Assembly (NCBI RefSeq): GCF_012911935.1
Contig: NZ_JAAXLA010000002.1
Location: forward strand, 1-64,000
Length of the DNA stretch: 64,000 bases
DNA from: Pseudonocardia acidicola
Lineage (GTDB): Bacteria > Actinomycetota > Actinomycetes > Mycobacteriales > Pseudonocardiaceae
Direction of reading: 5' to 3'
Shown here: piece by piece, positions 5,646-35,987 of the stretch
How positions within the stretch are numbered: position 1 is the stretch's first letter
How the letters are laid out: each line of letters opens with the position of its first letter
The notes under the pieces: generated by a model
What the model was told of the DNA's origin: nothing
Database searches by the model: none
Seen by the model: only the letters and a program-made list of their open reading frames with translations
Made by a program: the position numbers and the translations under genes

Positions 5646-7043
5646 ATGCTGGTCGGGCTGCAGGCCTGCAGGATCGCCGCCGCCGCCGTGATGTTGGCGA
5701 TGAGCGCCCTGTCTACGGATGACGCGGGATCCGCTGCTACCGGCGGCGCGCGCCCGCCCGCGGTCGGCTGCACCGTCACCCCGCAGGCCGCCGACTGCCT
5801 GCCCGGCACCGGACTCGGCGGTGCCGCCACGTCCGACGGCCAGATCACCGGCCCGGTCGCGAGCGCGCCGTCGTCCGAGGCCCCGGCGCCGCAGAGCACG
5901 TCGGCGGCGGCCGGATCGGCGTCGGCCGGATCGGCACCGACGGAATCGTCCGGTCCCGACTCGCCCGCGAACGCCGGTTCCGCCGGCTCGTCGAGCAGCA
6001 GCCCGCCGGTGACGCTCACCGGTGACGGCGGAACGTCCGCGGCGCAGATGCACGGCTGGGGTGCCCCGGCCCGCGTCGAGGAGTTCGACGAGGGCCTCGA
6101 GCAGTGGAACGTCTACGACGGCCCGGGCCACGCCGGCAACGGGCGGCGCAGCCCCGGCGCCGCCTCGGTCGGGAACGGTTACCTGACCATCACCGGCGAC
6201 CCGGACGGCACCACCGCGGGCATGGCTTGGAACTTCGGCTCCATGTACGGCCGCTGGGAAGGCCGGATCAAGGCCCCCGCCAGCGATCCGTCCTACAACG
6301 CGCTGCTGCTGCTGTGGCCCGACGCGGAGAACTTCCCCGTCGGCGGCGAGATCGACTTCATGGAGATGATGGACCCCACCCGCCAGAAGACCAACGCCTT
6401 CCTGCACTACGGCGCCGACAATTCCCAGATCGGCGGCGAAGTCGGCATCGACGCCACGCAATGGCACAACTGGGCCGTCGAATGGACCCCGACGAAGATC
6501 ACCACCTTCGTCGACGGCCAGGAATGGTGGTCCACCACCGACACCTCGGCATTTCCGCCCGGGCCGATGCACATGACCATTCAGCTCGACTGGTTCCCCA
6601 AGGGCGGCGCCGTCCAGCAGTCCCGGATGTACGTGGACTGGGTGCGGTTCTACCCGGTCGACGGCACCGGAGTCTCGCCGCTGGAGAACAACACCACCGC
6701 GAATCCGGTCGGTGCCGCGGGCGTCACCGGCACCCCGTCGGCGGTCCCGGCCCGGTCCACGACCGCCACCACGCGGACCACCGCCCCGCCGGCGCCGGCC
6801 GCGACGAGCACCACCACGACCCCGGCCGCGCCGGCCACCCCGACGGCTCCGGCCACGTCGGCCACCCCGACGGCTCCGGCCACGTCGGCCACCCCGACGA
6901 CCCGGGCCACGTCGACCCGCACGACGACCACGACCCCCACGACCACCGCGCCGCCCGAACCCCTCGCGGACCCGACCACCTCGATCGGCGCCGCATCGAC
7001 CACGCCCGAACCCGCGGCCCCCACCGCCGGGGCCGCCGGCTGA
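5646..7043 (+). CDS. Secreted GH16-family glycoside hydrolase
   Basis: 465-residue exported beta-glucanase-like enzyme. An N-terminal signal peptide (hydrophobic IAAAAVMLAMSAL at about 10-22) leads into a Ser/Ala-rich linker. The GH16 jelly roll spans about residues 138-340, with the catalytic motif GEIDFMEMMD (Glu-x-Asp-x-x-Glu type: nucleophile, helper Asp, acid/base) and the WHNWAVEWTP strand. A Thr/Pro/Ala-rich tail with 9-residue repeats follows. The start has GAGGGG 9 nt upstream. It may cut beta-1,3/1,4-glucan or another polysaccharide outside the cell; the substrate cannot be read from sequence. It is convergent with the NlpC/P60 gene. Confidence 0.88.
   Translation: MLVGLQACRIAAAAVMLAMSALSTDDAGSAATGGARPPAVGCTVTPQAADCLPGTGLGGAATSDGQITGPVASAPSSEAPAPQSTSAAAGSASAGSAPTESSGPDSPANAGSAGSSSSSPPVTLTGDGGTSAAQMHGWGAPARVEEFDEGLEQWNVYDGPGHAGNGRRSPGAASVGNGYLTITGDPDGTTAGMAWNFGSMYGRWEGRIKAPASDPSYNALLLLWPDAENFPVGGEIDFMEMMDPTRQKTNAFLHYGADNSQIGGEVGIDATQWHNWAVEWTPTKITTFVDGQEWWSTTDTSAFPPGPMHMTIQLDWFPKGGAVQQSRMYVDWVRFYPVDGTGVSPLENNTTANPVGAAGVTGTPSAVPARSTTATTRTTAPPAPAATSTTTTPAAPATPTAPATSATPTAPATSATPTTRATSTRTTTTTPTTTAPPEPLADPTTSIGAASTTPEPAAPTAGAAG
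6837..6890. repeat. Two exact 27-bp tandem repeats in the GH16 tail
   Basis: Units 6837-6863 and 6864-6890 are identical, with a partial third unit beginning at 6891. They encode TPTAPATSA-type repeats in the Thr/Pro linker, a common cell-wall-spanning or glycosylated tail. The unit length of 27 bp equals that in the NlpC/P60 tail at 24-104, though the sequences differ. Confidence 0.85.
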
Positions 7044-7077
7044 GCCGCCATCGGCACGCCGAGCGATGATCCGGACC

Positions 7078-7113
7078 CCGGCCCCACGTCGTCCCCCAGC
7101 GACGTGGGGCCGG
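7078..7113. terminator. Bidirectional hairpin terminator
   Basis: Perfect 14-bp arms (7078-7091 and 7100-7113, CCGGCCCCACGTCG and complement) with an 8-nt loop lie between the convergent GH16 (ends 7043) and NlpC/P60 (ends 7127) genes. There is no U-tract, as is usual in actinobacteria. Confidence 0.75.
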
Positions 7114-7126
7114 CTGCTGTCCGGGT

Positions 7127-8737
7127 TCAGGCCGCGGTGAGGACGACCCAGCTGCCGGGGCCGGTCGCGGCCAGCGCGACCAGCGCGCCACGCGGAGCAG
7201 CCGCCAGCAGCCGGGCCGCGGCGACGCTCGTCACGTCCACCGCGCGGTCCCGCACGGTGAACGTCCGCGTCGACCCGGCCGAGTAGCGGACCGTGATCGG
7301 TGCACCCACGAGCACGCCGTCGACCAGTGCGGGCGAGCCGAGCGTGATCACCGTGTGACCGCCGCTCGACCACACCCCACCGCCCCCGGCGGGGGCCTCC
7401 GGCAGCCCGGTGGCCCGTTGCGCGACCGGTGCGAGCTCGACCGTCCCGCCCGGCAGCGTCGCCGCGGTCGCCGTCGCCGGCACGGCGATCCGCGGAGCCG
7501 CGGTGCTGGCCGGCGGCGGGGCCACCGGAGCCGGCGTGCCCGAACGGGCGGCGACCGACGGCGCCGATCCTGCGGTAGTCGATGCGGGCGACGGCGTCCG
7601 GGCCGGTGGGGTCGTGGGAGCCGGTGGCCCAGCGGGCGCCGGCCCCGCGCGCCCCGGACCCGGTCCGGGCGTAGGCCCGCCGGGCACGGTCCCCGGGTCC
7701 GCAGCGGTGAACGGGCCGGCCGTGCCCGACGGCGCGGCGGGCTGCGCGCCGGGGCCGTTGCGGACCACGCCCGGCGACCCGTCGGCCGGAGGCCGGCCCG
7801 GTATGGGCACGACCAGCTGCACAGTGCTCGGCGTGTGCGCCGATTCCTCGTCGGCCGCAGCGATCGCGGCCGCCGCGGTGACCGCCTCCGGGGGCAGCGC
7901 GACACCCGGCTCCGGCAGTGGTCCCCGGGGCAGCGGGGCCGGCGGCGCGTCGAAGATCAACGGCGACGCCGCCGGGTCGGACGGCTGCGACGCCTGCGGC
8001 GCCTCCAGCAGCAGCCCCGCGAGCGGCACACCGGTGGCGGCCGGACGGGTCGCACCGAGGTAGTCGTCGCCGCGCCACCGGTAGTAGGCGGTCTGGACGG
8101 GCTTGCCGAACGTCGGCGCGTTCACCATCCGGCTGTCGCCGATGTACATGCCGACGTGGTGCACCTTCCCCGGAGAGCCGTAGAAGATCAGGTCACCGGG
8201 TTGCAACGGGGCGCCCGCCGTGACGTGCGGGCCACGGTTGTACTGGGTCTGCGCGGTGCGCGGGAGCGCGATCCCGGCGGCGGCGTAGCTGAACGTGGTG
8301 AGGCCCGAGCAGTCGAAGCCGCGGTCCCCGTTGGCCGGACCGTTGCCTCCCCACTGGTAGGGCAGCCCGATCTGCGCCATCGCGGTCTGCACCGCGACCT
8401 CGGCCCTGCCGTCGGGCACGCGGTTGGTGAACTCGGCCGGCCGCAGCTGCAGCGTCGAGGCCGGTTCGGCGTTCGGCGCCGAGGCCCGGGACCCGCCGGA
8501 CAGCAGCCCGCTGAGCACGCCGCCGGTGCGCGGCGTGTCGCCGGGGTGGCCGTGCGCAGCCGCAGTGGAGTCCGAGGCGGCGCGCACCGTGACCGTCGTG
8601 ACGGGGCTCGCGGACGGCGGGGTGCCGAACGTCATCACACCGAGCAACGCGGCCAGTGCCCACGTCGACGTGGTGAACCACCGGCGCCGGCCACCACCGG
8701 TCCGCAGGTCCGGCACCCGATCATCGCGCATCGTCAT
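7127..8737 (-). CDS. NlpC/P60 family cell-wall endopeptidase, long Pro-rich tail
   Basis: 536-residue exported peptidoglycan endopeptidase. The N-terminus MTMRDDRV precedes a hydrophobic segment (about residues 28-45, signal or anchor). The NlpC/P60 core at about 115-220 carries catalytic Cys143 in FDCSGL and His in VHHVGMYIG, and ends WRGDDYLGATRPA. A roughly 300-residue low-complexity Pro/Ala/Gly region follows. The last 80 residues contain ordered stretches (GGHTVITLGSPALVDGVLVG) that may form a small C-terminal domain. The start at 8737 has GGGAAGG 6 nt upstream. Paralogue of the gene at 1-1078; both flank the two-component/GH16 island. Confidence 0.88.
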   Translation of the reverse strand: MTMRDDRVPDLRTGGGRRRWFTTSTWALAALLGVMTFGTPPSASPVTTVTVRAASDSTAAAHGHPGDTPRTGGVLSGLLSGGSRASAPNAEPASTLQLRPAEFTNRVPDGRAEVAVQTAMAQIGLPYQWGGNGPANGDRGFDCSGLTTFSYAAAGIALPRTAQTQYNRGPHVTAGAPLQPGDLIFYGSPGKVHHVGMYIGDSRMVNAPTFGKPVQTAYYRWRGDDYLGATRPAATGVPLAGLLLEAPQASQPSDPAASPLIFDAPPAPLPRGPLPEPGVALPPEAVTAAAAIAAADEESAHTPSTVQLVVPIPGRPPADGSPGVVRNGPGAQPAAPSGTAGPFTAADPGTVPGGPTPGPGPGRAGPAPAGPPAPTTPPARTPSPASTTAGSAPSVAARSGTPAPVAPPPASTAAPRIAVPATATAATLPGGTVELAPVAQRATGLPEAPAGGGGVWSSGGHTVITLGSPALVDGVLVGAPITVRYSAGSTRTFTVRDRAVDVTSVAAARLLAAAPRGALVALAATGPGSWVVLTAA

Positions 8738-9096
8738 GTCGGGCCTTCCCGAATGGTCGACTGTGGATGGCCAACCGAGCATGCCGGGTGCGCCCGTAGC
8801 CGTCACCACGCACACGGGCGATATCTCAAGCGTTCGTGCGGAGCCGAACGGACTACACTCCGTGCAGGTCAGAAGGCCGACCCTCGTCGCGCGGCCGCCG
8901 CCGGACAGCAGCGATCCGAGCGGGATGAAGATCTGCGAGACGGGCTTCTCGATCGCTCCGGATCCTCCGGGCGATCGCGGTGCCGGTCCGGCCCACGGTC
9001 GTTCGGGGACGACCGGACCGAACCCCGGCAGGCCGGATCTCGCCGGCGTACCGAGAACGGACACGGTTCGCGGCCGCGACGTGCTTGGCTAGCGGC
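8738..9096. other. Divergent intergenic region, no gene seen
   Basis: It separates the NlpC/P60 (-) and enoyl-CoA hydratase (+) starts. A TACACT box at 8854-8859 on the + strand is a plausible -10 element for the hydratase gene, which would give a long leader. No supported ORF or clear operator was seen. Confidence 0.4.
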
Positions 9097-12013: not shown

Positions 12014-12126
12014 GCCGCGTCCACCCCGCTCCGTTGCCGGTGAGTGCTTATGGTGCCTTCTGCGACGCTAGTGCCCGCCGACGGCGCCGCCCAGGGGTCG
12101 CGGCGGCGCACGGAAGTGGTGGGACA

Positions 12127-13059
12127 TTGGCCCTGCAAGTCGCCGACGCCGGGGTCGGCGTGATGCTGCCGAGCTTCGACCCGTTCCGGCTGGGCCCGCC
12201 GCCGCTGGTCCGCGGTGCGCGGCTCGCCGAGGAGCTGGGGTTCGACTCCGGCTGGGTCGGCGACCATCTGAGCTTCCACCCGCCGGTGCTCGACGCACTC
12301 TGCGCGCTCTCGGCCGCCGCGGCCGGCACCGAGCGGCTGCTCCTGGGGGCCGGCGTGCTGCTGCTGCCGCTGCGCAATCCGGTGTGGACGGCCAAGCAGG
12401 TCGCCACGGTCGCGACCCTGGCGCCCGGCCGGGTGCTGCTCGGCGCGGGCGTCGGGGGCGAGAACCCTGCGGAGTTCGAGGCGGCCGGGGTGCCGGTGAC
12501 CGAGCGCGGCGCCCGGCTCGACGAGTCGGTGCAGATCATCGCTGCGTTGCTGCGCGGCGACGCCGTCGACCATCCCGGTCCGCTGCTGCCCACCCGCTCG
12601 CCCGCTCTCGAGCCGGTGCCCGACCCGGTCCCACTGATCATCGGGGGACGCTCGGACGCCGGGCTGCGCCGCGCCGCCCGGGTCGCGGACGGGTGGCTGG
12701 GCGTGTGGACCTCGCCGGACCGGCTGCGCCGCGCCCACGAACGGCTGCGCGAATGCGCCGAGCAGTACGGCCGGCCGCCGTGCACACCGCTGATGATGGT
12801 GTTCACGCACGTCACCGCCGGTGCGCAGAGCCGGGAGTCGGCGCGGGAGGAGGCCGCACGGTTCGTCGCCGGGCAGTACGGGCTGCCGCTGGCGGCGGTG
12901 GAGCGCTGGAGTCTGATCGGCGGCGCCCACGAGGTCGCCGAGGGCCTCGCGGCGCTGCGGGCGGCCGGCGCGGCGGGTTTCGTGCTGTTCCCGGCCGCGG
13001 CCGATCCGCTGACCCAGTACGAGCGGCTCGCAACGGTCCGCGGGCATCTCGACGGGTAA
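12127..13059 (+). CDS. Luciferase-like (LLM) F420/flavin-dependent oxidoreductase
   Basis: About 310 residues of the TIM-barrel luciferase-like monooxygenase superfamily: GVMLPSFDP strand, EELGFDSGWVGDH (cofactor region), RLLLGAGVLLLPLRNP, LLGAGVGGENPAEFEAAGV and PLIIGGRSDAGLRRAARVADGWLG. These features fit F420-dependent oxidoreductases. The start is uncertain; I took the TTG at 12127, preceded by GGTGGG, because upstream residues are low complexity. Reaction and substrate are unknown. It may share a regulatory gap with the divergent dehydrogenase. Confidence 0.82.
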   Translation: MALQVADAGVGVMLPSFDPFRLGPPPLVRGARLAEELGFDSGWVGDHLSFHPPVLDALCALSAAAAGTERLLLGAGVLLLPLRNPVWTAKQVATVATLAPGRVLLGAGVGGENPAEFEAAGVPVTERGARLDESVQIIAALLRGDAVDHPGPLLPTRSPALEPVPDPVPLIIGGRSDAGLRRAARVADGWLGVWTSPDRLRRAHERLRECAEQYGRPPCTPLMMVFTHVTAGAQSRESAREEAARFVAGQYGLPLAAVERWSLIGGAHEVAEGLAALRAAGAAGFVLFPAAADPLTQYERLATVRGHLDG

Positions 13060-13285: not shown

Positions 13286-13567
13286 CTACCCGGCGAAGGG
13301 GCCGATCACCGGCTTCCACTCGACGACCTGCTGGTCCACCACCACGCCCTCGGAGACGTAGGGGTCGCCGTCCAGCAGGGTCTTCAGCTCGTCCTGGCCC
13401 GCGGCCTCGACCACCAGCACGCCGCCGGTGCCGTCCACGAAGGGACCGGCCTCCTTCAGCTTGCCCTGACCGACGAGTTCCTTGAGGTAGGCGCCGTGCC
13501 CCGCACGGGCTCCGTCGATCACCGAGGTGTCGTCGGTGTAGCGCCAGATGACGGCATAGAACGACAT
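13286..13567 (-). CDS. YCII-related domain protein
   Basis: 93-residue ferredoxin-like YCII-domain protein beginning MSFYAVIWRYTDD and containing HGAYLKELVGQGKL, with the conserved Asp-rich GDPYVSEGVV stretch near the end (dehydrochlorinase/EthD-like fold). AAGGAGAT sits close upstream of the ATG. It is the last gene of a minus-strand set with the FmdB-type protein, whose 3' end it overlaps by 49 nt, and the lactonase. Catalytic role unknown; YCII proteins often occur in small-molecule catabolic clusters. Confidence 0.85.
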   Translation of the reverse strand: MSFYAVIWRYTDDTSVIDGARAGHGAYLKELVGQGKLKEAGPFVDGTGGVLVVEAAGQDELKTLLDGDPYVSEGVVVDQQVVEWKPVIGPFAG

Positions 13568-14031
13568 CCGATCTCCTTCTCTCGAACAACCTGGGGCGAG
13601 ACGGCGAGCGAGCTCGGGGCCTGCGCGGGCGCGGGAGCCGGGGTCGATGCGACGGGCCCGCCGGCGAACGTGGTGACCACCGACGCGTTGGGGTCCAGGG
13701 TCCCGGCCTTGATCGCCTTCTCCTGGTAGGCGATCTCCCGCTCGAGCGCCCGGTTGTCGCCGCGCGCCCGCGCGGTGAGCATCCGGGCGGCTGTCGGGGT
13801 CAGCGTGCAGGTTCCCGGGATGCCCGGCGCGTGCCCGCACGCCCCGCCACTGCCGGTCCGCGGCTCGACGGGCCTGGGCTCCGGCGCACCGGTGAGCAGC
13901 GCCCCGCCGAACTGCCGGCGGGCCGGTGCCCCGCACCGGCCGCACGCGGCCTCGGCCGGCACGGGACGCGCGACCCAGTGCTCGGTGCGCGCCCCGCAGC
14001 CGCGGCAGCGGTAGTCGACGAGGACACCCAT
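13519..14031 (-). CDS. FmdB-type zinc-ribbon protein
   Basis: 170 residues. The N-terminus has paired Cys motifs CRGCG (Cys9/Cys12) and CGRCG (about Cys30/Cys33) of a zinc ribbon like that in FmdB regulatory proteins. The middle contains ACGHAPGIPGTCTLT and a helical ALEREIAYQEKAIKAGT; the C-terminus is low complexity. Its start overlaps the lactonase stop by one base, so both are probably co-translated. It may serve as a zinc-binding scaffold or regulator of the neighbouring enzymes; no direct evidence. Confidence 0.75.
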   Translation of the reverse strand: MGVLVDYRCRGCGARTEHWVARPVPAEAACGRCGAPARRQFGGALLTGAPEPRPVEPRTGSGGACGHAPGIPGTCTLTPTAARMLTARARGDNRALEREIAYQEKAIKAGTLDPNASVVTTFAGGPVASTPAPAPAQAPSSLAVSPQVVREKEIGCRSMPSSGATPTTPR

Positions 14032-14813
14032 CAGTCGATGGCCTCGCCGAGGGCCTTCAGCTTCGCCCAGTCATCGGGGTCGTGCTGAATGATGATCGTG
14101 GCGTCGTTGGCGTGCGCGATCTGCTTGAGCCTGCGGATCGAGTGCACGGCGTCGAGCGTGCTGTAGTCCGACGGCATCGGCAGGTCGTCGGACAGCGCCT
14201 CCGGCACGTGCACGGTGTCGCCGGTGAGCATGATGTTCTGGTTCGGCAGCCGGACGAGCACGCTGCTGTTGCCGGGGGTGTGCCCGGGCAGGCTGAGGAT
14301 CTGGATGCTGCCGTCGCCGAACAGGTCGTGGTCGCCGGTGAGCGGGTTCCAGTTGAAGCCGCGGGCAGGCTCGATGTCGGCGGTGCGGAAGAACACCGAC
14401 GCCGCGGGCATCGGCCAGTAGGCGTAGGCCAGGTCCGGCGCCCCGATGTAGAACCGGGCGTTCGGGAAGAGCTTGATCGCGCCGGTGTGGTCGAAGTGCG
14501 AGTGCGTGATGATCACGTGGGTGATGTCGTCGGCCTTGAAGCCGACGGCCTCCAGCTGCTTGTCCACCCGCAGGTCGGAGGTGTACTCCAGGCCGAGGTG
14601 GGTGGCGAGTTCGCCGTAGGTGCCTTCCGGGTCGTCGACGGCCTCCGGGGCGATGCCGGTGTCGACCAGCACCAGCCCGCGGGGGTGCTGGATGACGTAG
14701 GTCGGGACCGGGATGTAGATGTTGCCGGTGCCGCCGACGACCAGCAGGCCGCGGTCCAGAGTGAACTTCGCGCCGTCGAGTGCCCACAGCTTCGTGGCTG
14801 TGCCGGTTGTCAT
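14031..14813 (-). CDS. Metallo-beta-lactamase-fold hydrolase, N-acyl homoserine lactonase-like
   Basis: 260-residue metallo-hydrolase. The metal site is plain: HSHFDHTG (HxHxDH), GHTPGN (third His), TGDT (bridging Asp) and a late His in QHDPDDW. The spacing and the tyrosine-bearing AYAYWPMP region resemble AHL/lactone lactonases more than beta-lactamases. The start at 14813 (MTTGTATK) follows GAGAGGAC. It leads a set with the FmdB and YCII genes. The promoter 160-200 nt upstream shares its layout with that of the luciferase-like gene at 15104-16312, suggesting that the two enzymes act together on a lactone-containing route. Confidence 0.88.
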   Translation of the reverse strand: MTTGTATKLWALDGAKFTLDRGLLVVGGTGNIYIPVPTYVIQHPRGLVLVDTGIAPEAVDDPEGTYGELATHLGLEYTSDLRVDKQLEAVGFKADDITHVIITHSHFDHTGAIKLFPNARFYIGAPDLAYAYWPMPAASVFFRTADIEPARGFNWNPLTGDHDLFGDGSIQILSLPGHTPGNSSVLVRLPNQNIMLTGDTVHVPEALSDDLPMPSDYSTLDAVHSIRRLKQIAHANDATIIIQHDPDDWAKLKALGEAID

Positions 14814-14974
14814 CGTGAGGCGTCCTCTCCCGTGGGCGACGACCCGGAGGACGACGGATGTCGGCCCAGCGTGATCCACTGTGGACCGACGGGGCGGGTC
14901 GTCCCGGGTGGCGTCGTACTGGCGTTCGTCCGATGGGCCGGGGCGGCCACCGGTGAGAAGCGGATCTTCCCGTC

Positions 14975-15020
14975 GGCGAACGCTAGTGGCGGAGCGCACA
15001 CCGGCACGTCCCATATTCAG
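14975..15020 (-). promoter_or_regulatory. Promoter/operator module A (lactonase operon)
   Basis: Read on the + strand it contains GGCGAACGCTAGTGG (14975-14989) and, 32 nt on, CGTCCCATATTCAG (15007-15020). On the minus strand this becomes an AATAT-GGACG upstream box, then CCACTAGCGT with a TAGCGT -10-like hexamer directed toward the lactonase gene. The same two boxes at identical spacing occur at 16430-16475. Confidence 0.6.
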
Positions 15021-15103
15021 ACACGACCATGAGTTGCCGGACGCGCGGTCGGGGTGGCCGGGCCGGCGGCACCGGCTCGGCCACCCGTCATCCCGGGCCG
15101 GGC

Positions 15104-16312
15104 CTACCCGGGAAACTCCGGCATGATCTTCTCGCCGAACAGCTGCAGGTTCCGCCTGACCTCATTGAAGGGCAGGAAGCCCTGGTCGGCCCACCAGACG
15201 AAGTACTCCGGGCTGCCGTTCTCCCACAGCTCGTGCATCTTCTCCTTCACCGCGCCCACGTCGCCGGCGTAGAGGTAGTGCGACTCCTCCATCCGCTCGA
15301 CCGTCTGCGGGACGGGGCCGGTCTCGCCTGCCTTGCGGAACACCTCGTAGAAACCGTGGTGGCCCCAGAACTCCCTCCAGCCCACGCCCGACACCCCGCG
15401 CCGCGCCTGGCGCATCGCCTCGTCCTTGTTGCGGCCGAAGTGGACCGACCGCAGCACGCCGGTGTTCTCACCGAGCGCCAGGTCGAGGCCGAGGTGCTGC
15501 TTCGCCTCGTCCTGGTAAGCCTCGACCATCTTGTGGTAATCCTCGGGAATGGAGGTCAGGATGATCGGGGTGATCCCCTCGCGGGCTGTCCACCGAATGG
15601 TGTTCTCACTCATCGAGAACGCCTGGAACATCTTCGGGTGCGGCTTCTGGTACGGCTTCGGAACGACGGAGATCTTGTGCAGCAGGCCGTCGTCACCCAT
15701 TTCGCCGTCGGCACCGAACCGCCGGGTGTAGTCACCGGCGGGCCATGGAGAGGCCGGGTACGGGTAGGGGAACTTGTAGAACTTCCCGTCGTAGCTGAAC
15801 GCCTCCTCCTTCCACGCCATCTTGAGGATCCGGTAGCACTCTTCGAACAGCTCGCGGTTCAGCTTGTCGCGCTCGCTCGCGTCGCTGGTCGCCGTCTGGA
15901 CCGGGAGCAGCTGGGTCAAGGCGTTGAACCAGCGCTCCTGGTACCCGCGCGCCATGCCGACGACCGTCCGACCCTGGGTCATCTGGTCCAGCCACGCCGT
16001 GTCGATGGCCAGCTTGACCGGGTTGTGGCTGGGCAGCACGTAGCCGACCGGGCCGACCTTGATGTTCTTGGTGTGGTGGGCGACGTCCAGGTACAGAGAG
16101 GACGGGCCCCCTTGCTCCATGCCCTCGGTGTGCAGGTGGTGCTCCGGGAAGCAGATGGCCTCGAAGCCGTAGTCGTCGGCCATCTTGGACAGTTCCCGGA
16201 CCTCGGTCAGCATCTGCTGCCATTTCTCGGTTTTGTGACCGATCGGCCGCAGTGCTTCGCGCTCCCTTTCCGAAGCCGGTAGCGCCGGCAGCATGAAAAA
16301 GATGAACTTCAC
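15104..16312 (-). CDS. Luciferase-like flavin monooxygenase (bacterial luciferase family)
   Basis: 402 residues with the luciferase-like alpha/beta barrel: KFIFFMLPALP, YGFEAICFPEHHLHTEGM (flavin/substrate side), LYLDVAHHTKNIKVGPVGYVLPSHNP, GRTVVGMARGYQ and an extended C-terminus. It is longer than F420-type members and closer to FMN-dependent two-component monooxygenases, which need a separate flavin reductase. The start is GTG at 16312 with GGAG upstream. It is divergent from a GntR regulator. Type II Baeyer-Villiger oxygenases belong to this superfamily, so ketone-to-lactone oxidation is a reasonable but unproved role next to a lactonase. Confidence 0.88.
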   Translation of the reverse strand: MKFIFFMLPALPASEREREALRPIGHKTEKWQQMLTEVRELSKMADDYGFEAICFPEHHLHTEGMEQGGPSSLYLDVAHHTKNIKVGPVGYVLPSHNPVKLAIDTAWLDQMTQGRTVVGMARGYQERWFNALTQLLPVQTATSDASERDKLNRELFEECYRILKMAWKEEAFSYDGKFYKFPYPYPASPWPAGDYTRRFGADGEMGDDGLLHKISVVPKPYQKPHPKMFQAFSMSENTIRWTAREGITPIILTSIPEDYHKMVEAYQDEAKQHLGLDLALGENTGVLRSVHFGRNKDEAMRQARRGVSGVGWREFWGHHGFYEVFRKAGETGPVPQTVERMEESHYLYAGDVGAVKEKMHELWENGSPEYFVWWADQGFLPFNEVRRNLQLFGEKIMPEFPG

Positions 16313-16429
16313 CGCTGAACTCCTCGCCCGAGCGTCGGCATGTTGATGTCGTGCTGCATTGGCCGATCACGTTCTCGTGATCGGCGGGCCCGGAATGCCA
16401 CGGAGGCGTGGCCGGGCGTTGTGGTGCAC

Positions 16430-16475
16430 GGCGAACGTTAGTGGGAGCAGGCCCGTCCGACCGTCCGATATTCGG
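16430..16475 (-). promoter_or_regulatory. Promoter/operator module B (luciferase-like gene)
   Basis: GGCGAACGTTAGTGG (16430-16444) and CGTCCGATATTCGG (16462-16475) match module A box for box with the same 32-nt offset. On the minus strand the TAACGT hexamer is a -10 candidate for the luciferase-like gene. CCGATATTCGG is itself a small palindrome (CCGA, TAT, TCGG) that could be the operator of the GntR protein whose gene starts 124 nt away. Confidence 0.6.
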
Positions 16476-16598
16476 CCACTGGGGCGCGCTGAGAATGGTG
16501 TCGCGTCAGGCTCGACGGGGGTCGGAGTGCGGGATACCCGGATATGATTCCGGCAGAGCCCGACGCCGGTCCGGATGGAGCAGGGAGGTGCACCCACC

Positions 16599-17345
16599 GT
16601 GACGAACGCCGCCACGAACGGCCGCCGGCGTAACCCGAAGATGTCCGAGGTGATCGCCCGGGAACTGGCCACGCACATCGTCGAGGCCGGCCTCGCGCCG
16701 GGCAGCGTGCTGCCCACCGAGCGGGAGATGATCGAGAGCTTCGCGGTCGGCCGGGCGACGATCCGGGAGGCGCTGCGCCTGCTGGAGACCCGCAACGTCA
16801 TCACGATCCGGCCGGGGCCCGGCGGCGGCCCCGTCGTGCGGCGACCGCGGCCCTGCGACCTGGGCGAGGCGCTCTCGCTCATCCTCCAGTTCGAGGACGC
16901 CTCCCTCGACGACGTCATGGAGGCCCGCCGCGCGCTGGAGCCGATGATCGCCCGGTTGGCCGCCGAGCGGATCTCCGACGCCGAGATCGAGGTGCTGGAC
17001 GAGACGGTGCGGCTGATCGAGGCCTCCCCGGAGGATCCCGAGGTCTTCCACGAGCAGAACCGCACGTTCCACTCGACGCTGTGCCGGGCCGCCCACAGCG
17101 TGGTGCTCGAGGTGTTCCTCGACTCGCTGGCCAGCGTGGCTGACGGCGTATCGGGCGGGGTCACGTACTCGCCGCGGCGCTACCTCGCGGCGGCCCGGAT
17201 GCACGCCACGATCGTCACCGCGTTGCGCGCGCGGGACGGCGCCGCCGCCGAGCAGGCCATGCGCGAGCACATGGACGAGACCCGGGCCTACTGGCACAAG
17301 AAGTACCGGGACCTGGCGTCGCGCCCGGTCGTCTGGCGGGGTTGA
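16599..17345 (+). CDS. GntR-family regulator, FadR/FCD subfamily
   Basis: 248-residue transcription factor. A winged helix at about 15-85 carries the GntR signature LAPGSVLPTEREMIESFAVG and GRATIREALRLLETRNVI. The all-helical FCD effector domain (about 95-230) has metal-type residues in EQNRTFHSTLCRAAH and RMHATIVTALRARD. I chose the GTG at 16599 because GGGAGGTG lies 8 nt upstream; an ATG at 16575 would add 8 residues. Such regulators usually respond to carboxylic acids or acyl-CoA. Its position suggests control of the divergent luciferase-like gene and, through module A, the lactonase operon. Confidence 0.92.
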   Translation: MTNAATNGRRRNPKMSEVIARELATHIVEAGLAPGSVLPTEREMIESFAVGRATIREALRLLETRNVITIRPGPGGGPVVRRPRPCDLGEALSLILQFEDASLDDVMEARRALEPMIARLAAERISDAEIEVLDETVRLIEASPEDPEVFHEQNRTFHSTLCRAAHSVVLEVFLDSLASVADGVSGGVTYSPRRYLAAARMHATIVTALRARDGAAAEQAMREHMDETRAYWHKKYRDLASRPVVWRG

Positions 17346-22122: not shown

Positions 22123-23859
<1,737 letters not shown>

Positions 23860-23955
23860 CGTGACGATCGTGTCCGGCCTGGCCGCACCCCGGAGAAGGT
23901 GCGGTTCATGCGCAGAAATATGGCGTCGGTCACATCGCTCTGTCAAGCAAACGCG

Positions 23956-33191: not shown

Positions 33192-33271
33192 CCCACCTGC
33201 TGCCGCGACCCGCCGGCTGCACCGCAGAGCGTTCGTGCGGTCACGCAAGGTCGTGTGACGACCGTGATACA

Positions 33272-33307
33272 GGTAGAATTATTAGCAGTGCAAAGTAACC
33301 TTCTACC
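33272..33307 (+). promoter_or_regulatory. AT-rich promoter/operator before the FUSC gene
   Basis: Outer arms GGTAGAA (33272-33278) and TTCTACC (33301-33307) flank an unusually AT-rich 22-nt core. TAGAAT at 33274-33279 fits a -10 box. An inverted repeat covering the start point suggests repression, as by a MarR/TetR-type factor sensing exporter substrates; no such regulator is adjacent. Confidence 0.5.
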
Positions 33308-33323
33308 GCGCCGGGGGGACACC

Positions 33324-35987
33324 GTGCAGAGTGCTGTCGGCCCATCTCCCGACCCCGGTCTGCGGCGCAGCGGTCTGCGTGACCGGCTCATCGCGTCCGA
33401 TCCCGGCGGCAACCGGTTCCGGATGGCGCTGGGCGCCCTGCTCAGCGTGGGCAGCGCGCTCGCCCTGGAGTTCGCTTTCGTCCGGCTGTTCGCCCCCAGC
33501 CAGTCGGCCTTGGTCCCGATGCTCATCGGCGCCGTCGTCGCGATGATGGGCTCGAACGGCTTGACCGCACCGACCGTCGGCGAGCGGCTGCGGACCGGGG
33601 TGTTCCTCCCGGTCGCGTTCGGCCTCGGGATGTTCCTCGCCGTCCTGGTCGGCGGCCACCAGCACCTGGAGCTCGGGCTGTTCGTGGGGGTGATATTCGT
33701 CGCGGCCTACGTGCGGCGGTTCGGCCCGGCGTTCTTCCACTACGGCTTCCTGGGCTGGATGGGCTACTTCTTCGGCCTGTTCCTGCACCCGACGTTCGCC
33801 ACGTTCCCCTTCATGCTCCTCGCCGCGGTCGTCGCGACGGCGTGGACCCTGTTGCTCTCGGTGACCGTGCTGCGCCGACGACCGGCGCGCGTGATGCGCC
33901 ACGCGCTACGGGCGTTCGCCGGACGCACCGACGCCGTGGGCCGGGCCGCCGCCGACCTGCTCGCCACCGCGCCCGACGACGTGGAGGCCCTCCCCCGCCG
34001 ACGCGCCCGGCTGCGGTCGCTGCAGCTGCGGCTCGCCGAGACCGCACTGATCGTCGAAGGCTGGCTGGGCGACCCGGCGGCGCTGCCCCGTGGGCGGTCC
34101 GCAGCGGCGTCGCGGCGCCGGCTCATCGATTCCCAGGCCGCCGTCGACGCCTTCGCCGTCGCCGCCGACGCCCTGGTCGGCGCGGACGCCGCGCTCGTCG
34201 AGGCCGCCCGCCGGGTCGCCGCACGACTGGGCCGTGGCGACCACGACGGCGCCGCAGCCCAGGCACGCGCCCTCCTCGACCTGGCCCGCCGAGCCGCCGC
34301 CACCGACACGCCCGGCTGGTGGCCGGCCCAGCGGCTGGCAACGATGGCGATCGACATCGTCGAGCTCGCGCGGCCGTGGTGCGACCAGCCCGCCGCCGGC
34401 ACCGCGGGCGCCGGCGGCGCGGAACCCGAGCCGTTCACCCCGGCCGTCACCCTCGTGATGGGTGGCATGCTCCCCGGCTCGGTGGCCACCGCGGCGGACG
34501 TCTCGGCGCGCTCCCACCGGCTGAACCCGCTGCGCGGCCTGGACCTCACCACCCGGCAGGCCGTGCAGATGGCGGTGGCGGGCGGGCTGGCGATCCTGCT
34601 CGGCGAGATGGTGTCCCCGACCCGCTACTACTGGGCGGTGCTGGCCGCGTTCCTCGCCTTCACCGGCACCAGCACCCGCTCGGAGACCGTCGCCAAGGCG
34701 TTCAACCGGGTGCTGGGCACCCTGATCGGGCTGGCCGCGGCGATACTGCTGGCCGACCTGACCGCCGGCAACACCCCTGCCATCCTCGCCGTGATCCTGG
34801 TCAGCGTCTTCGCCGCGTTCTACCTGTTCACCGTGAACTACGCGCTCATGGTCTTCTTCGTCACGATCATGGTTGCGGAGATGTACGACGTGCTGCACCA
34901 GTTCAGCGACCAGCTTCTGCTGTTGCGGCTCACCGAGACCGCGGTCGGCGCCGCGGTCGGCATCGTCGTGGCGCTGATCCTGGTGCCCACGAGCACCCGG
35001 GACACCGCGCGGGCCGCCCGCACCGCCGTGCTCGGCGCACTGGCGGAGCTGCTGGGCGCCACCGCGCGCCGGATCCGTCCCGAAACCCGCCGGGGACCCG
35101 AGCCCGACGCCACCCCGTCCGATCTCGGGGAGCTAGCCCGCACCCTCGACGACCGGTTACGCCAGCTCGCGCTCGTGGCCAGGCCGCTGACCTGGCCGGT
35201 GGTCCTGGGCAACGATCCGGGCCGGATACGCGACCGGCTCCGGCTCTACGAGGACTGCGGCATCTCCGCGCGTTCCCTGACGATGTGGCTACGCCGCCAT
35301 TCCGAGCCCGCGCCGCCCGAGCTGGCCGACGCCGCCCAGGCGCTGGGTGACGCGGCGGGCCGGCTCGCCGAGGTCGGGACGTACCGGCCCGACCGGGAGG
35401 TGCACGAGCATCTGGCCCGCGCCGACAGCATGTTGCTGCAGGCCACCCGGCCCGGTGCCGCCGCCGCCGTCCATCCCGCCACCCGGCCGCTGGTGCGCCT
35501 GCACGAACTGCTGCACGAGGTCTCTGCCGCCGTCCCGGCGGACGCGCTCCCGGTCGCGCCCCGGGCCGTCGCGCCCCGACCGGCCGACGCCCGGCTCGGC
35601 GGGACCGTCCGGACCGCGGACGGCGAGCCGGTGACGGCCGGCTCCGTGACCGTCATCGACGGCAGCGGCCAGCAGGCCGCTCACGCCGAGCTGGCACCCG
35701 ACGGCACCTTCCGGGTGCCCGGAAGGCTGGCCGGGCCGCACGTCCTGGTGGCCAGCGCGCCCGGATACACGTCGGCCGCCGTCCGGCTGCAGCTGGGCGG
35801 GAACACGCCGCGCCGGGTCGACCTGGTGGTCCATCCCGCGCCCCGGCTTGCCGCTCCGCGCCGGCCGATGCGCTCCGGTCAGTGCAGCAGCCCGGCCGCG
35901 CACGGGCCGGGCGAACGGGGGTCGAGCGCTGATCAGGCCCCCTCCCCGGCGGCGCACCCGCAGACTAGCGTCGCCATCGACCCCTAG
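33324..35987 (+). CDS. FUSC-family transporter fused to a carboxypeptidase-regulatory-like domain
   Basis: 887-residue membrane protein. Two hydrophobic blocks (about residues 40-180 and 415-560), each with several membrane helices, are separated by a soluble helical region. The second block includes YYWAVLAAFLAFTGTSTRSE, the FUSC signature. Aromatic-acid exporters (AaeB type) belong to this fold. At the C-terminus (about 735-830) GGTVRTADGEPVTAGSVTV and TFRVPGRLAGPHVLVASAPGY form a CarboxypepD_reg beta-sandwich, which may sit outside the bilayer. I chose the GTG at 33324 because GGGGGGACACC precedes it and the promoter signals lie upstream. Exporting toxic acids would suit the catabolic neighbourhood. 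Confidence 0.88.
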   Translation: MQSAVGPSPDPGLRRSGLRDRLIASDPGGNRFRMALGALLSVGSALALEFAFVRLFAPSQSALVPMLIGAVVAMMGSNGLTAPTVGERLRTGVFLPVAFGLGMFLAVLVGGHQHLELGLFVGVIFVAAYVRRFGPAFFHYGFLGWMGYFFGLFLHPTFATFPFMLLAAVVATAWTLLLSVTVLRRRPARVMRHALRAFAGRTDAVGRAAADLLATAPDDVEALPRRRARLRSLQLRLAETALIVEGWLGDPAALPRGRSAAASRRRLIDSQAAVDAFAVAADALVGADAALVEAARRVAARLGRGDHDGAAAQARALLDLARRAAATDTPGWWPAQRLATMAIDIVELARPWCDQPAAGTAGAGGAEPEPFTPAVTLVMGGMLPGSVATAADVSARSHRLNPLRGLDLTTRQAVQMAVAGGLAILLGEMVSPTRYYWAVLAAFLAFTGTSTRSETVAKAFNRVLGTLIGLAAAILLADLTAGNTPAILAVILVSVFAAFYLFTVNYALMVFFVTIMVAEMYDVLHQFSDQLLLLRLTETAVGAAVGIVVALILVPTSTRDTARAARTAVLGALAELLGATARRIRPETRRGPEPDATPSDLGELARTLDDRLRQLALVARPLTWPVVLGNDPGRIRDRLRLYEDCGISARSLTMWLRRHSEPAPPELADAAQALGDAAGRLAEVGTYRPDREVHEHLARADSMLLQATRPGAAAAVHPATRPLVRLHELLHEVSAAVPADALPVAPRAVAPRPADARLGGTVRTADGEPVTAGSVTVIDGSGQQAAHAELAPDGTFRVPGRLAGPHVLVASAPGYTSAAVRLQLGGNTPRRVDLVVHPAPRLAAPRRPMRSGQCSSPAAHGPGERGSSADQAPSPAAHPQTSVAIDP

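Follow-up and report, generated by a model that had tools for sequence, protein, structure and literature searches.

The present analysis concerns two promoters that share a two-box module within a 64,000-nt stretch of DNA (hereafter called the window) from the soil actinobacterium Pseudonocardia acidicola, the genome assembly of which comprises 7.16 Mb in 165 contigs and is 99.8% complete. The modules lie upstream of two genes on the minus strand. One of them (14031–14813) encodes a lactonase-like hydrolase with a metallo-beta-lactamase fold (PF00753, 97 bits), and directly behind it on the same strand follow genes for a zinc-ribbon FmdB-like protein (13519–14031) and, also on the minus strand, a YCII-domain protein (13286–13570; PF03795, 52.7 bits, obtained with the longer frame 13286–13945). 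The other gene (15104–16312) encodes a luciferase-like flavin monooxygenase, abbreviated LLM (PF00296, 107 bits). A GntR/FCD regulator gene (16575–17345, plus strand; PF07729 and PF00392) is oriented divergently from the LLM gene and is a conserved neighbor. About 6 kb from the module, the minus strand carries the gene for a regulator with a GAF-AAA-Fis architecture (22123–23946; PF01590, AAA lid, HTH_8), which is called EBP here. It has the recognition helix ARSTLYRK and lacks a GAFTGA motif, and its C-terminal Fis-type helix-turn-helix was recognized at residues 561–596 (HTH_8, E 1.5e-12).

In a preliminary description of the sequence, which did not mention the EBP gene, it had been claimed that the same pair of boxes precedes the lactonase and the LLM gene at an identical distance. 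Both parts of this claim were borne out. The boxes occupy 14975–14989 and 15007–15020 upstream of the lactonase gene, and 16430–16444 and 16462–16475 upstream of the LLM gene; all four matches are exact, and the distance is 32 nt from start to start, with a gap of 17 nt, in both modules. Read toward the genes, the lactonase promoter has the sequence TGTCTGAATATGGGACG-N20-CTAGCGTTCGCC and the LLM promoter TGGCCGAATATCGGACG-N20-CTAACGTTCGCC. Single boxes with up to three mismatches were not enriched in the window (7 matches versus 4.9 expected for one box, 9 versus 13.1 expected for the other). For the spaced pair, both boxes were searched jointly at the fixed distance, with 22 bases specified and up to three mismatches allowed. 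In the whole genome of P. acidicola only the two modules of the window matched, the backwards control yielded no match, and none of the 59 other genomes searched contained the spaced pattern. An ungapped alignment of 51 nt of the two promoters revealed 36 identities (71%), a value that was reached by none of 2000 Markov shuffles. The observation of a shared two-box module was confirmed.

The inner box turned out to be part of a 17-bp dyad with the idealized form TGTCCGA-NNN-TCGGACA, and the outer box contains a -10 hexamer of the form TANNNT. At the lactonase promoter the putative operator (TGTCTGAATATGGGACG, 15007–15023, minus strand) agrees with the idealized dyad at 11 of 14 positions, and the hexamer TAGCGT (14980–14985, minus strand) follows 21 nt after the dyad, so that transcription is predicted to start near 14973 with the operator centered at about -42. 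At the LLM promoter the putative operator (TGGCCGAATATCGGACG, 16462–16478, minus strand) agrees at 12 of 14 positions, and the hexamer TAACGT (16435–16440, minus strand) again follows after 21 nt, with a predicted start near 16428. The idealized dyad occurs at five places in the window with at least 11 of 14 matches, and a TANNNT hexamer 20–23 nt further on is present only at the two reported ones (both at 21 nt). The description had also named TAGCGT and TAACGT as -10-like elements, and this view of the promoter architecture was supported. The geometry is shared with other genomes. Among 45 distinct sites of the same operator type (57 before near-duplicates were dropped; a second type is described below), scanned at offsets from 0 to 44, the motif (T/C)ANNNT starts 21 nt after the dyad at 10 sites and 22 nt after it at 13 sites, and at no other offset it was found at more than 4 sites. 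When the hexamer is set at -12 to -7, the calculated position of the dyad center is near -42.

An operator near -42 that replaces the -35 element is the layout of class II activator promoters, and the 23 of 45 sites with a distance of 21–22 nt, and hence a center near -41.5, are in agreement with this layout. A TTGACA-like hexamer 15–19 nt before the -10 was searched at the two window promoters and four related promoters, and the best match was 3 of 6; likewise, a consensus scan for sigma-70 promoters found none in 14800–16600. The AATAT-GGACG box was ruled out as a -35 element: it belongs to the dyad, the end of which lies 21 nt upstream of the -10 hexamer, and no TTGACA-like hexamer was found in the range searched. 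The geometry thus suggests that the bound regulator, proposed below to be the EBP, acts as an activator. A general scan for dyads of the form NGTC...GACN (at least 5 of 7 paired arm positions) gave 270 matches versus 132 expected; it was too loose to be useful, and the -10 peak became blurred.

To characterize the conservation, the surroundings of ten GntR orthologs (72–76% identity) in eight genomes were used as related clusters. LLM, GntR and EBP occur together in nine clusters of seven other genomes; in the tenth cluster (G072) GntR, EBP and YCII are present and LLM was not recognized. P. oceani possesses two clusters of this kind. All close orthologs of LLM that were detected, at five loci, belong to Pseudonocardia, and an order-wide search at E 1e-120 matched one of 397 sampled genomes, the own one, in a sample with few members of the genus; therefore, LLM orthology rests on the genus. 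A site of the type TGT(T/C)GCA-N3-TCGGACA, corresponding to the LLM operator of the window, was present upstream of LLM or of its place in all ten related clusters, and about 21 nt later it was followed by CTAGCGT or a close variant. Because this site was kept in ten of ten clusters while the flanking intergenic sequence had diverged, the module was regarded as a conserved regulatory element. A lack of conservation at orthologous loci, which the preliminary description had named as an outcome that would speak against the module, was not observed in this search of related genomes.

Several further observations were made with these clusters. A relaxed scan of the genus with TCGGACA-N21-CTAGCGTTC matched 10 of 62 genomes, and 2 in the backwards control; the one-mismatch matches in G061, G067 and G077 are probably due to chance, as the backwards control likewise gave 2. 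In a further genome scan, one of eight genome matches (G000:C55, 3 mismatches) was taken as chance, again with 2 matches in the backwards control. In three LLM-cluster promoters (G063a, G068b and G082; L048 13655, L053 3723 and L062 4848) CTAGGTTCG replaces CTAGCGTTCG, a variant that is one base shorter and lies inside the otherwise conserved -10 block. In G072 (L059, around 5981–6675) the LLM promoter and its operator are kept without a recognized LLM gene, and YCII follows about 400 nt further on. In G066 the gene behind an LLM-type promoter is a different luciferase-like one, which is followed by metallo-beta-lactamase and cupin genes.

The preliminary description had proposed the neighboring GntR/FCD protein as the binder of the boxes. 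GntR and EBP are never separated in the LLM clusters, and therefore 20 loci of other EBPs of the genus were examined, which are 38–49% identical to the window EBP and were taken from a larger number of matches. A dyad matrix, built from six LLM-cluster sites and one site of G066, matched in 17 of the 20 loci (L107 to L123; scores 15.9 to 27.5) at a distance of 170–318 nt upstream of the EBP match, and at E 1e-12 no GntR homologue was detected in any of the 20. At 19 loci of GntR paralogues (34–45% identical; two pairs overlap) the best score was 14.4, which is background, for loci with a length of only 3.7 kb. Reversed EBP loci reached scores of up to 18.1, and for shuffled loci the 95th percentile was 17.0 and the maximum 23.5; because of these control values it is the recurring place of the site, and not its score, that carries the argument. 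A dedicated GntR regulon would have its operator with GntR and not without it, but operator and EBP stood together without GntR in 17 of the 20 loci. A combined matrix of dyad and box was a poorer tool on the EBP-paralogue loci than the dyad matrix, because most of those promoters are devoid of CTAGCGTTC. GntR as the binder was thus not borne out, as the dyad lies beside EBPs without GntR, covaries with the EBP recognition helix (see below), and is at background level at the GntR-paralogue loci. The assignment to GntR is probably wrong, and the most likely binder is the EBP encoded at 22123–23946.

The three remaining loci (L124, L125 and L126), which had no site of the first type, contain the perfect dyad GGTCTCA-NNN-TGAGACC, and their EBPs have the helix SRATIYRK instead of ARSTLYRK. 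An order-wide EBP search matched 27 of 397 genomes, with 30 loci among the matches listed, and the loci of genus and order were combined to a tally of 48 EBP loci, from which L128 (the window EBP) and L129 (the same as L123) were left out, as they were from the general dyad scan mentioned above. With the helix ARST, the operator TGT(A/C/T)GC-N4-(T/C)(C/G)GGAC(A/G) was present in 19 of 21 loci and GTCTCANNNTGAGAC in none. With the helix SRAT, GTCTCANNNTGAGAC was present in 15 of 18 loci and the ARST-class operator in none. The expectation by chance is 1.05 sites of the first type over the 21 ARST loci and 0.00 sites of the second type over the 18 SRAT loci. The operator TGTCC(C/T)A-N3-T(C/G)GGACA accompanies the helix ARSS in three of five loci, and the same type was found in one ARST locus (L134); four loci have an unassigned or another helix, and two of them contain GTCTCANNNTGAGAC. 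The second class also kept the promoter geometry: of 48 site directions, 14 had TANNNT at a distance of 20–23 nt, and the remaining offsets up to 49 contributed 3 in total. Because the exclusive pairing of helix and operator is otherwise hard to explain, the EBP is predicted to bind the dyad.

The domains of the EBP would suggest a sigma-54 activator, and therefore the corresponding features were inspected. The sigma-54 domain PF04552 was not found in the genome of P. acidicola and was found in 1 of 62 genomes of the genus; the same search was positive in 4 of 14 control genomes. The single case in the genus (G064, C2 472531–472953) is a clear sigma-54 DNA-binding domain (94 bits), which is unusual for the phylum and could be a contamination or a rare acquisition. 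The GAFTGA motif was absent from 30 of 30 EBPs checked, including the window EBP (the split copy of G068 was left out). The best PDB alignment of the window EBP leaves residues 381–440, the expected loop region, unaligned. Walker A is kept in the EBPs, the acidic residues of the canonical Walker B motif are replaced, and the window EBP has LRHAD at the place of the expected acidic pair. Of the features of the NtrC family, the C-terminal Fis-type helix-turn-helix is present, and the GAFTGA loop and a genomic sigma-54 were not found; EBP domains with a lost GAFTGA motif place the protein with regulators of the TyrR, DhaR and HupR kind. Because no sigma-54 gene was found and the GAFTGA loop is missing, it is unlikely that the EBP works as a classical sigma-54 activator. 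It is solely the TANNNT hexamer at a fixed distance that suggests a sigma-70-type action. Actinobacteria are reported to be without sigma-54 (PMC3162934), and TyrR, DhaR and HupR are described there as sigma-70-dependent. The window EBP resembles other homologs of sigma-54 activators in which GAFTGA was lost or altered; unlike these, it contains a GAF domain, 61 of 62 genomes of its genus show no sigma-54, and its group would act from a single dyad near -42, with an operator that follows the recognition helix.

Taking these results into account, we assign a probability of about 80% to the reading that a sigma-54-independent EBP activates the LLM and the lactonase gene together via the two-box modules. 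Each module would be one complete activator-dependent promoter. The 17-bp dyad would be the binding site of a GAF-AAA-Fis regulator, for which the product of 22123–23946 is the most likely candidate, and the outer box would supply a sigma-70-type -10 element (TAGCGT or TAACGT), while the dyad near -42 would take the place of the -35 element. Owing to the fixed distance the dyad falls near -42, and the regulator is predicted to act from there as a class II activator that recruits RNA polymerase. The GAF domain would sense a small molecule, which would thereby switch on the LLM gene jointly with the putative lactonase operon, comprising the genes for lactonase, zinc ribbon and YCII. The module, its conservation and geometry, the covariation of operator and helix and the missing sigma-54 domain are seen in the sequences themselves; the binding, the activation, the inducer, the operon structure and the enzyme reactions are inferred.

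A number of results weigh against this reading. The operators in the window diverge from those of the orthologs: the ortholog matrix gave scores of 12.0 and 10.7, which is background for 64 kb, they do not fit the strict ARST-class pattern, and their match to the idealized dyad (11 and 12 of 14) is no better than that of the orthologs' own sites. GAATAT and a terminal ACG are common to both of them, and their spacer is 1 nt shorter than that of the orthologs. The core helix of the window EBP is unchanged (ARSTLYRK) and does not account for this divergence, and the matrix scan did not find a recognizable site upstream of the window EBP gene itself. The EBP is present in every cluster with a close GntR (10 of 10), so that the two are inseparable there, and the control loci of the GntR paralogues were short. 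When dyad and -10 were scored jointly, only 9 of 20 EBP loci exceeded all of 60 shuffles. The class operator was missing in 2 of 21 ARST, 3 of 18 SRAT and 2 of 5 ARSS loci; moreover, the class patterns were written after the loci had been inspected, and several loci are close relatives. At 22 of 45 sites there is no -10 at 21–22 nt, 6 of the 23 sites that have one are LLM-cluster sites, and the full TANNNT motif was found at 21 or 22 nt in only 9 of 45 (2 and 7, respectively), compared to 4 at offset 36.

The divergence of the window operators bears on the alternative that the two-box module is the operator-promoter of a dedicated regulon of the neighboring GntR/FCD protein. The GntR gene lies next to the LLM gene in divergent orientation, both in the window and in the related clusters. 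Two residues of the GntR recognition region set it apart from the ten orthologs (FAVGRAT in the window, FDVGRST in the other 10), just as the window operators differ from theirs. Because the window operators diverge and GntR changes, while the EBP helix is the same and the window EBP gene has no site, this alternative was retained; it is nevertheless quite improbable. In 17 of 20 loci the dyad accompanies an EBP relative, and in none of the 20 was a GntR homologue detected; the (shorter) GntR-paralogue loci are at background, and the dyad covaries with the EBP helix. In addition, a separate TGC(A/G)CATGATGATGATA-like element is conserved nearer to gntR in the related clusters, not in the window, and it is a better candidate for a GntR site, or could be the gntR promoter.

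Three other explanations were considered. The EBP might bind the dyads as a repressor that blocks RNA polymerase until it is relieved by an inducer. As the dyad overlaps the expected -35 region, a bound protein could occlude the polymerase, and TyrR, a GAFTGA-less EBP relative, is described as usually being a repressor of sigma-70 promoters (PMC1173090). Repression has to be taken seriously but is regarded as unlikely. The distance between dyad and hexamer is 21–22 nt in 23 of 45 sites, versus at most 4 at any other offset, and a -35 consensus is missing at the promoters checked; both features fit an activator that takes over the -35 contact. The two short conserved blocks with their fixed spacing could also be the -35 and -10 elements of an ECF-type sigma factor, which would need no separate regulator, and we take GGAC and CGTT of the module to resemble ECF-type elements. 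The blocks are 20–21 nt apart, though, whereas the usual ECF spacing is shorter; furthermore, the block farther upstream forms a 17-bp dyad, the sequence of which changes in the SRAT class while TANNNT stays 20–23 nt away (14 of 48 versus 3), which makes a sigma factor of this type very improbable. Finally, the resemblance of the two promoters might reflect a recent promoter duplication or chance and have no regulatory meaning. The identity of 36 of 51 was also found in 3 other of 1035 pairs of upstream regions of the window, and because these do as well, overall promoter identity was rejected as a proof. A copied promoter would also be a plausible history, as the lactonase and zinc-ribbon genes are unmatched in the related clusters. 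But the identity is concentrated in two blocks and, decisively, there is conservation at related loci, and because of this the resemblance goes beyond chance. The operator and -10 positions were conserved in related promoters while their surroundings diverged, and similar operators recur at other promoters, so that there is hardly any room left for an explanation without regulatory meaning.

The proposed activation of LLM and lactonase by the EBP raises the question which reactions would be regulated. The label lactonase for the product of 14031–14813 holds at the superfamily level only. Its best PDB sequence matches are N-acylhomoserine lactonases, with 4-pyridoxolactonase further down, and it is below the curated equivalog cut-offs for AttM (167 of 390 bits), AiiA (102.8 of 375 bits) and pyridoxolactonase (95.6 of 325 bits). 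It thus shares the metallo-beta-lactamase fold with AttM/AiiA and 4-pyridoxolactonase; it is, however, far below the cut-offs of these enzymes, and its context would suit a catabolic lactone better than quorum quenching. The label FmdB of the zinc-ribbon protein is likewise below both curated cut-offs (PF09723, 29 versus 34.4 bits; TIGR02605 of NCBIfam, 29.1 versus 31.3 bits). Among nine PDB matches of LLM, only 3,6-diketocamphane 1,6-monooxygenase spans most of the protein (residues 44–363, E 1.8e-15); the similarity is remote. This enzyme belongs to the FMN-dependent Baeyer-Villiger monooxygenases of type II. For LLM, a flavin-dependent reaction of the Baeyer-Villiger type is probable, in which oxygen is inserted beside a carbonyl group, and the lactonase would open the product. 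At E 1e-15 the related clusters yielded no counterpart of the window genes for lactonase and zinc ribbon; G063 contains a different metallo-beta-lactamase gene behind YCII, and G063 and G082 have an alpha/beta hydrolase between LLM and YCII.

The loci of the EBP relatives have a similar content. A frame with the Baeyer-Villiger fingerprint, a sequence motif of such monooxygenases, is present in 11 of the 20 EBP loci. In L116, L117 and L118 operators of the family lie about 190–220 nt before same-strand metallo-beta-lactamase matches, and the order is operator, metallo-beta-lactamase gene, Baeyer-Villiger fingerprint frame, operator and EBP (L117 619–5312, L118 5970–10665, L116 9210–13931). Family operators were also found before FMO-like genes in L108 and L122, and before long frames with an FMO-like part in L119 and L123. 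In these long frames (L119 6187–9015, 942 aa; L123 10983–13496, 837 aa) the FMO-like part lies behind an extension of 310–340 residues, for which no Pfam match was obtained at E 0.001, L119 having been scanned only in 7000–8790. In L110 an operator lies just before an SMP-30/gluconolactonase domain; the longest frame has this operator within its 5′ portion, so that the real start presumably lies later. Paired operators with a distance of 38–41 nt from start to start are located between divergent genes at L109 7484–7538, L110 8878–8935 and L122 8813–8868, and the pair of L110 separates the EBP gene and the gluconolactonase-type gene. This context points to oxygenation together with lactone or ester opening as the recurring theme, of which the window would have the luciferase-like version. 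The small dedicated regulon that had been predicted, with a joint regulation of monooxygenase and lactonase, is supported.

Some similarity exists to the prm system. In Rhodococcus sp. BCP1 and in Mycobacterium a regulator gene of the "Fis family" lies beside prmABCD, and a regulator MimR lies beside mimABCD (PMC4428276, PMC8394569). For prmA of BCP1 a conserved palindrome over the proposed -35 box, a start mapped by primer extension and a comparison of the palindrome with Escherichia coli Fis sites are described (PMC4428276). The "Fis family" gene divergent from the monooxygenase operon and the palindrome at -35 thus resemble the arrangement discussed here, and the BCP1 palindrome may be another case of the same layout, likened by its description and not by its operator letters (PMC4428276). 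A characterized member of this exact EBP group did not appear in the literature searched by topic words. No paper on the operator was found among open-licence papers, for which the operator letters were searched only for the TGTCTCA class, so that an earlier publication is not denied here. Each part is of a kind already known, and their combination did not turn up in the literature searched.

On a broader scale, it seems fairly probable that Mycobacteriales use a family of former sigma-54 activators, with GAF, degenerate AAA and Fis helix-turn-helix domains, as ordinary class II activators of sigma-70-type promoters. They would bind a 17-bp TGTC-N9-GACA dyad, the inner bases of which would be read by the second Fis helix in three classes (ARST, ARSS and SRAT). 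One branch would form a dedicated switch for Baeyer-Villiger oxygenation and lactone opening, in which a luciferase-like enzyme replaces the flavoprotein of type I in the window. Many such proteins are labeled as sigma-54 activators in databases even in species without sigma-54; the predicted operator, the predicted promoter geometry and the helix-operator code make their mode of action testable. They would also allow regulons to be predicted and sensors to be designed for the metabolism of alkanes, ketones and lactones in Rhodococcus, Mycobacterium and Pseudonocardia, and the luciferase-like gene and the "lactonase" gene of the window become one proposed two-step pathway.

Two additional genes of the window should be mentioned. 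A second luciferase-like gene (12034–13059; PF00296, 184 bits) is located on the opposite strand and has no two-box module. In 33255–35987 a frame of 910 aa combines a FUSC-type membrane protein with a carboxypeptidase-regulatory-like domain (PF13515 and PF13620).

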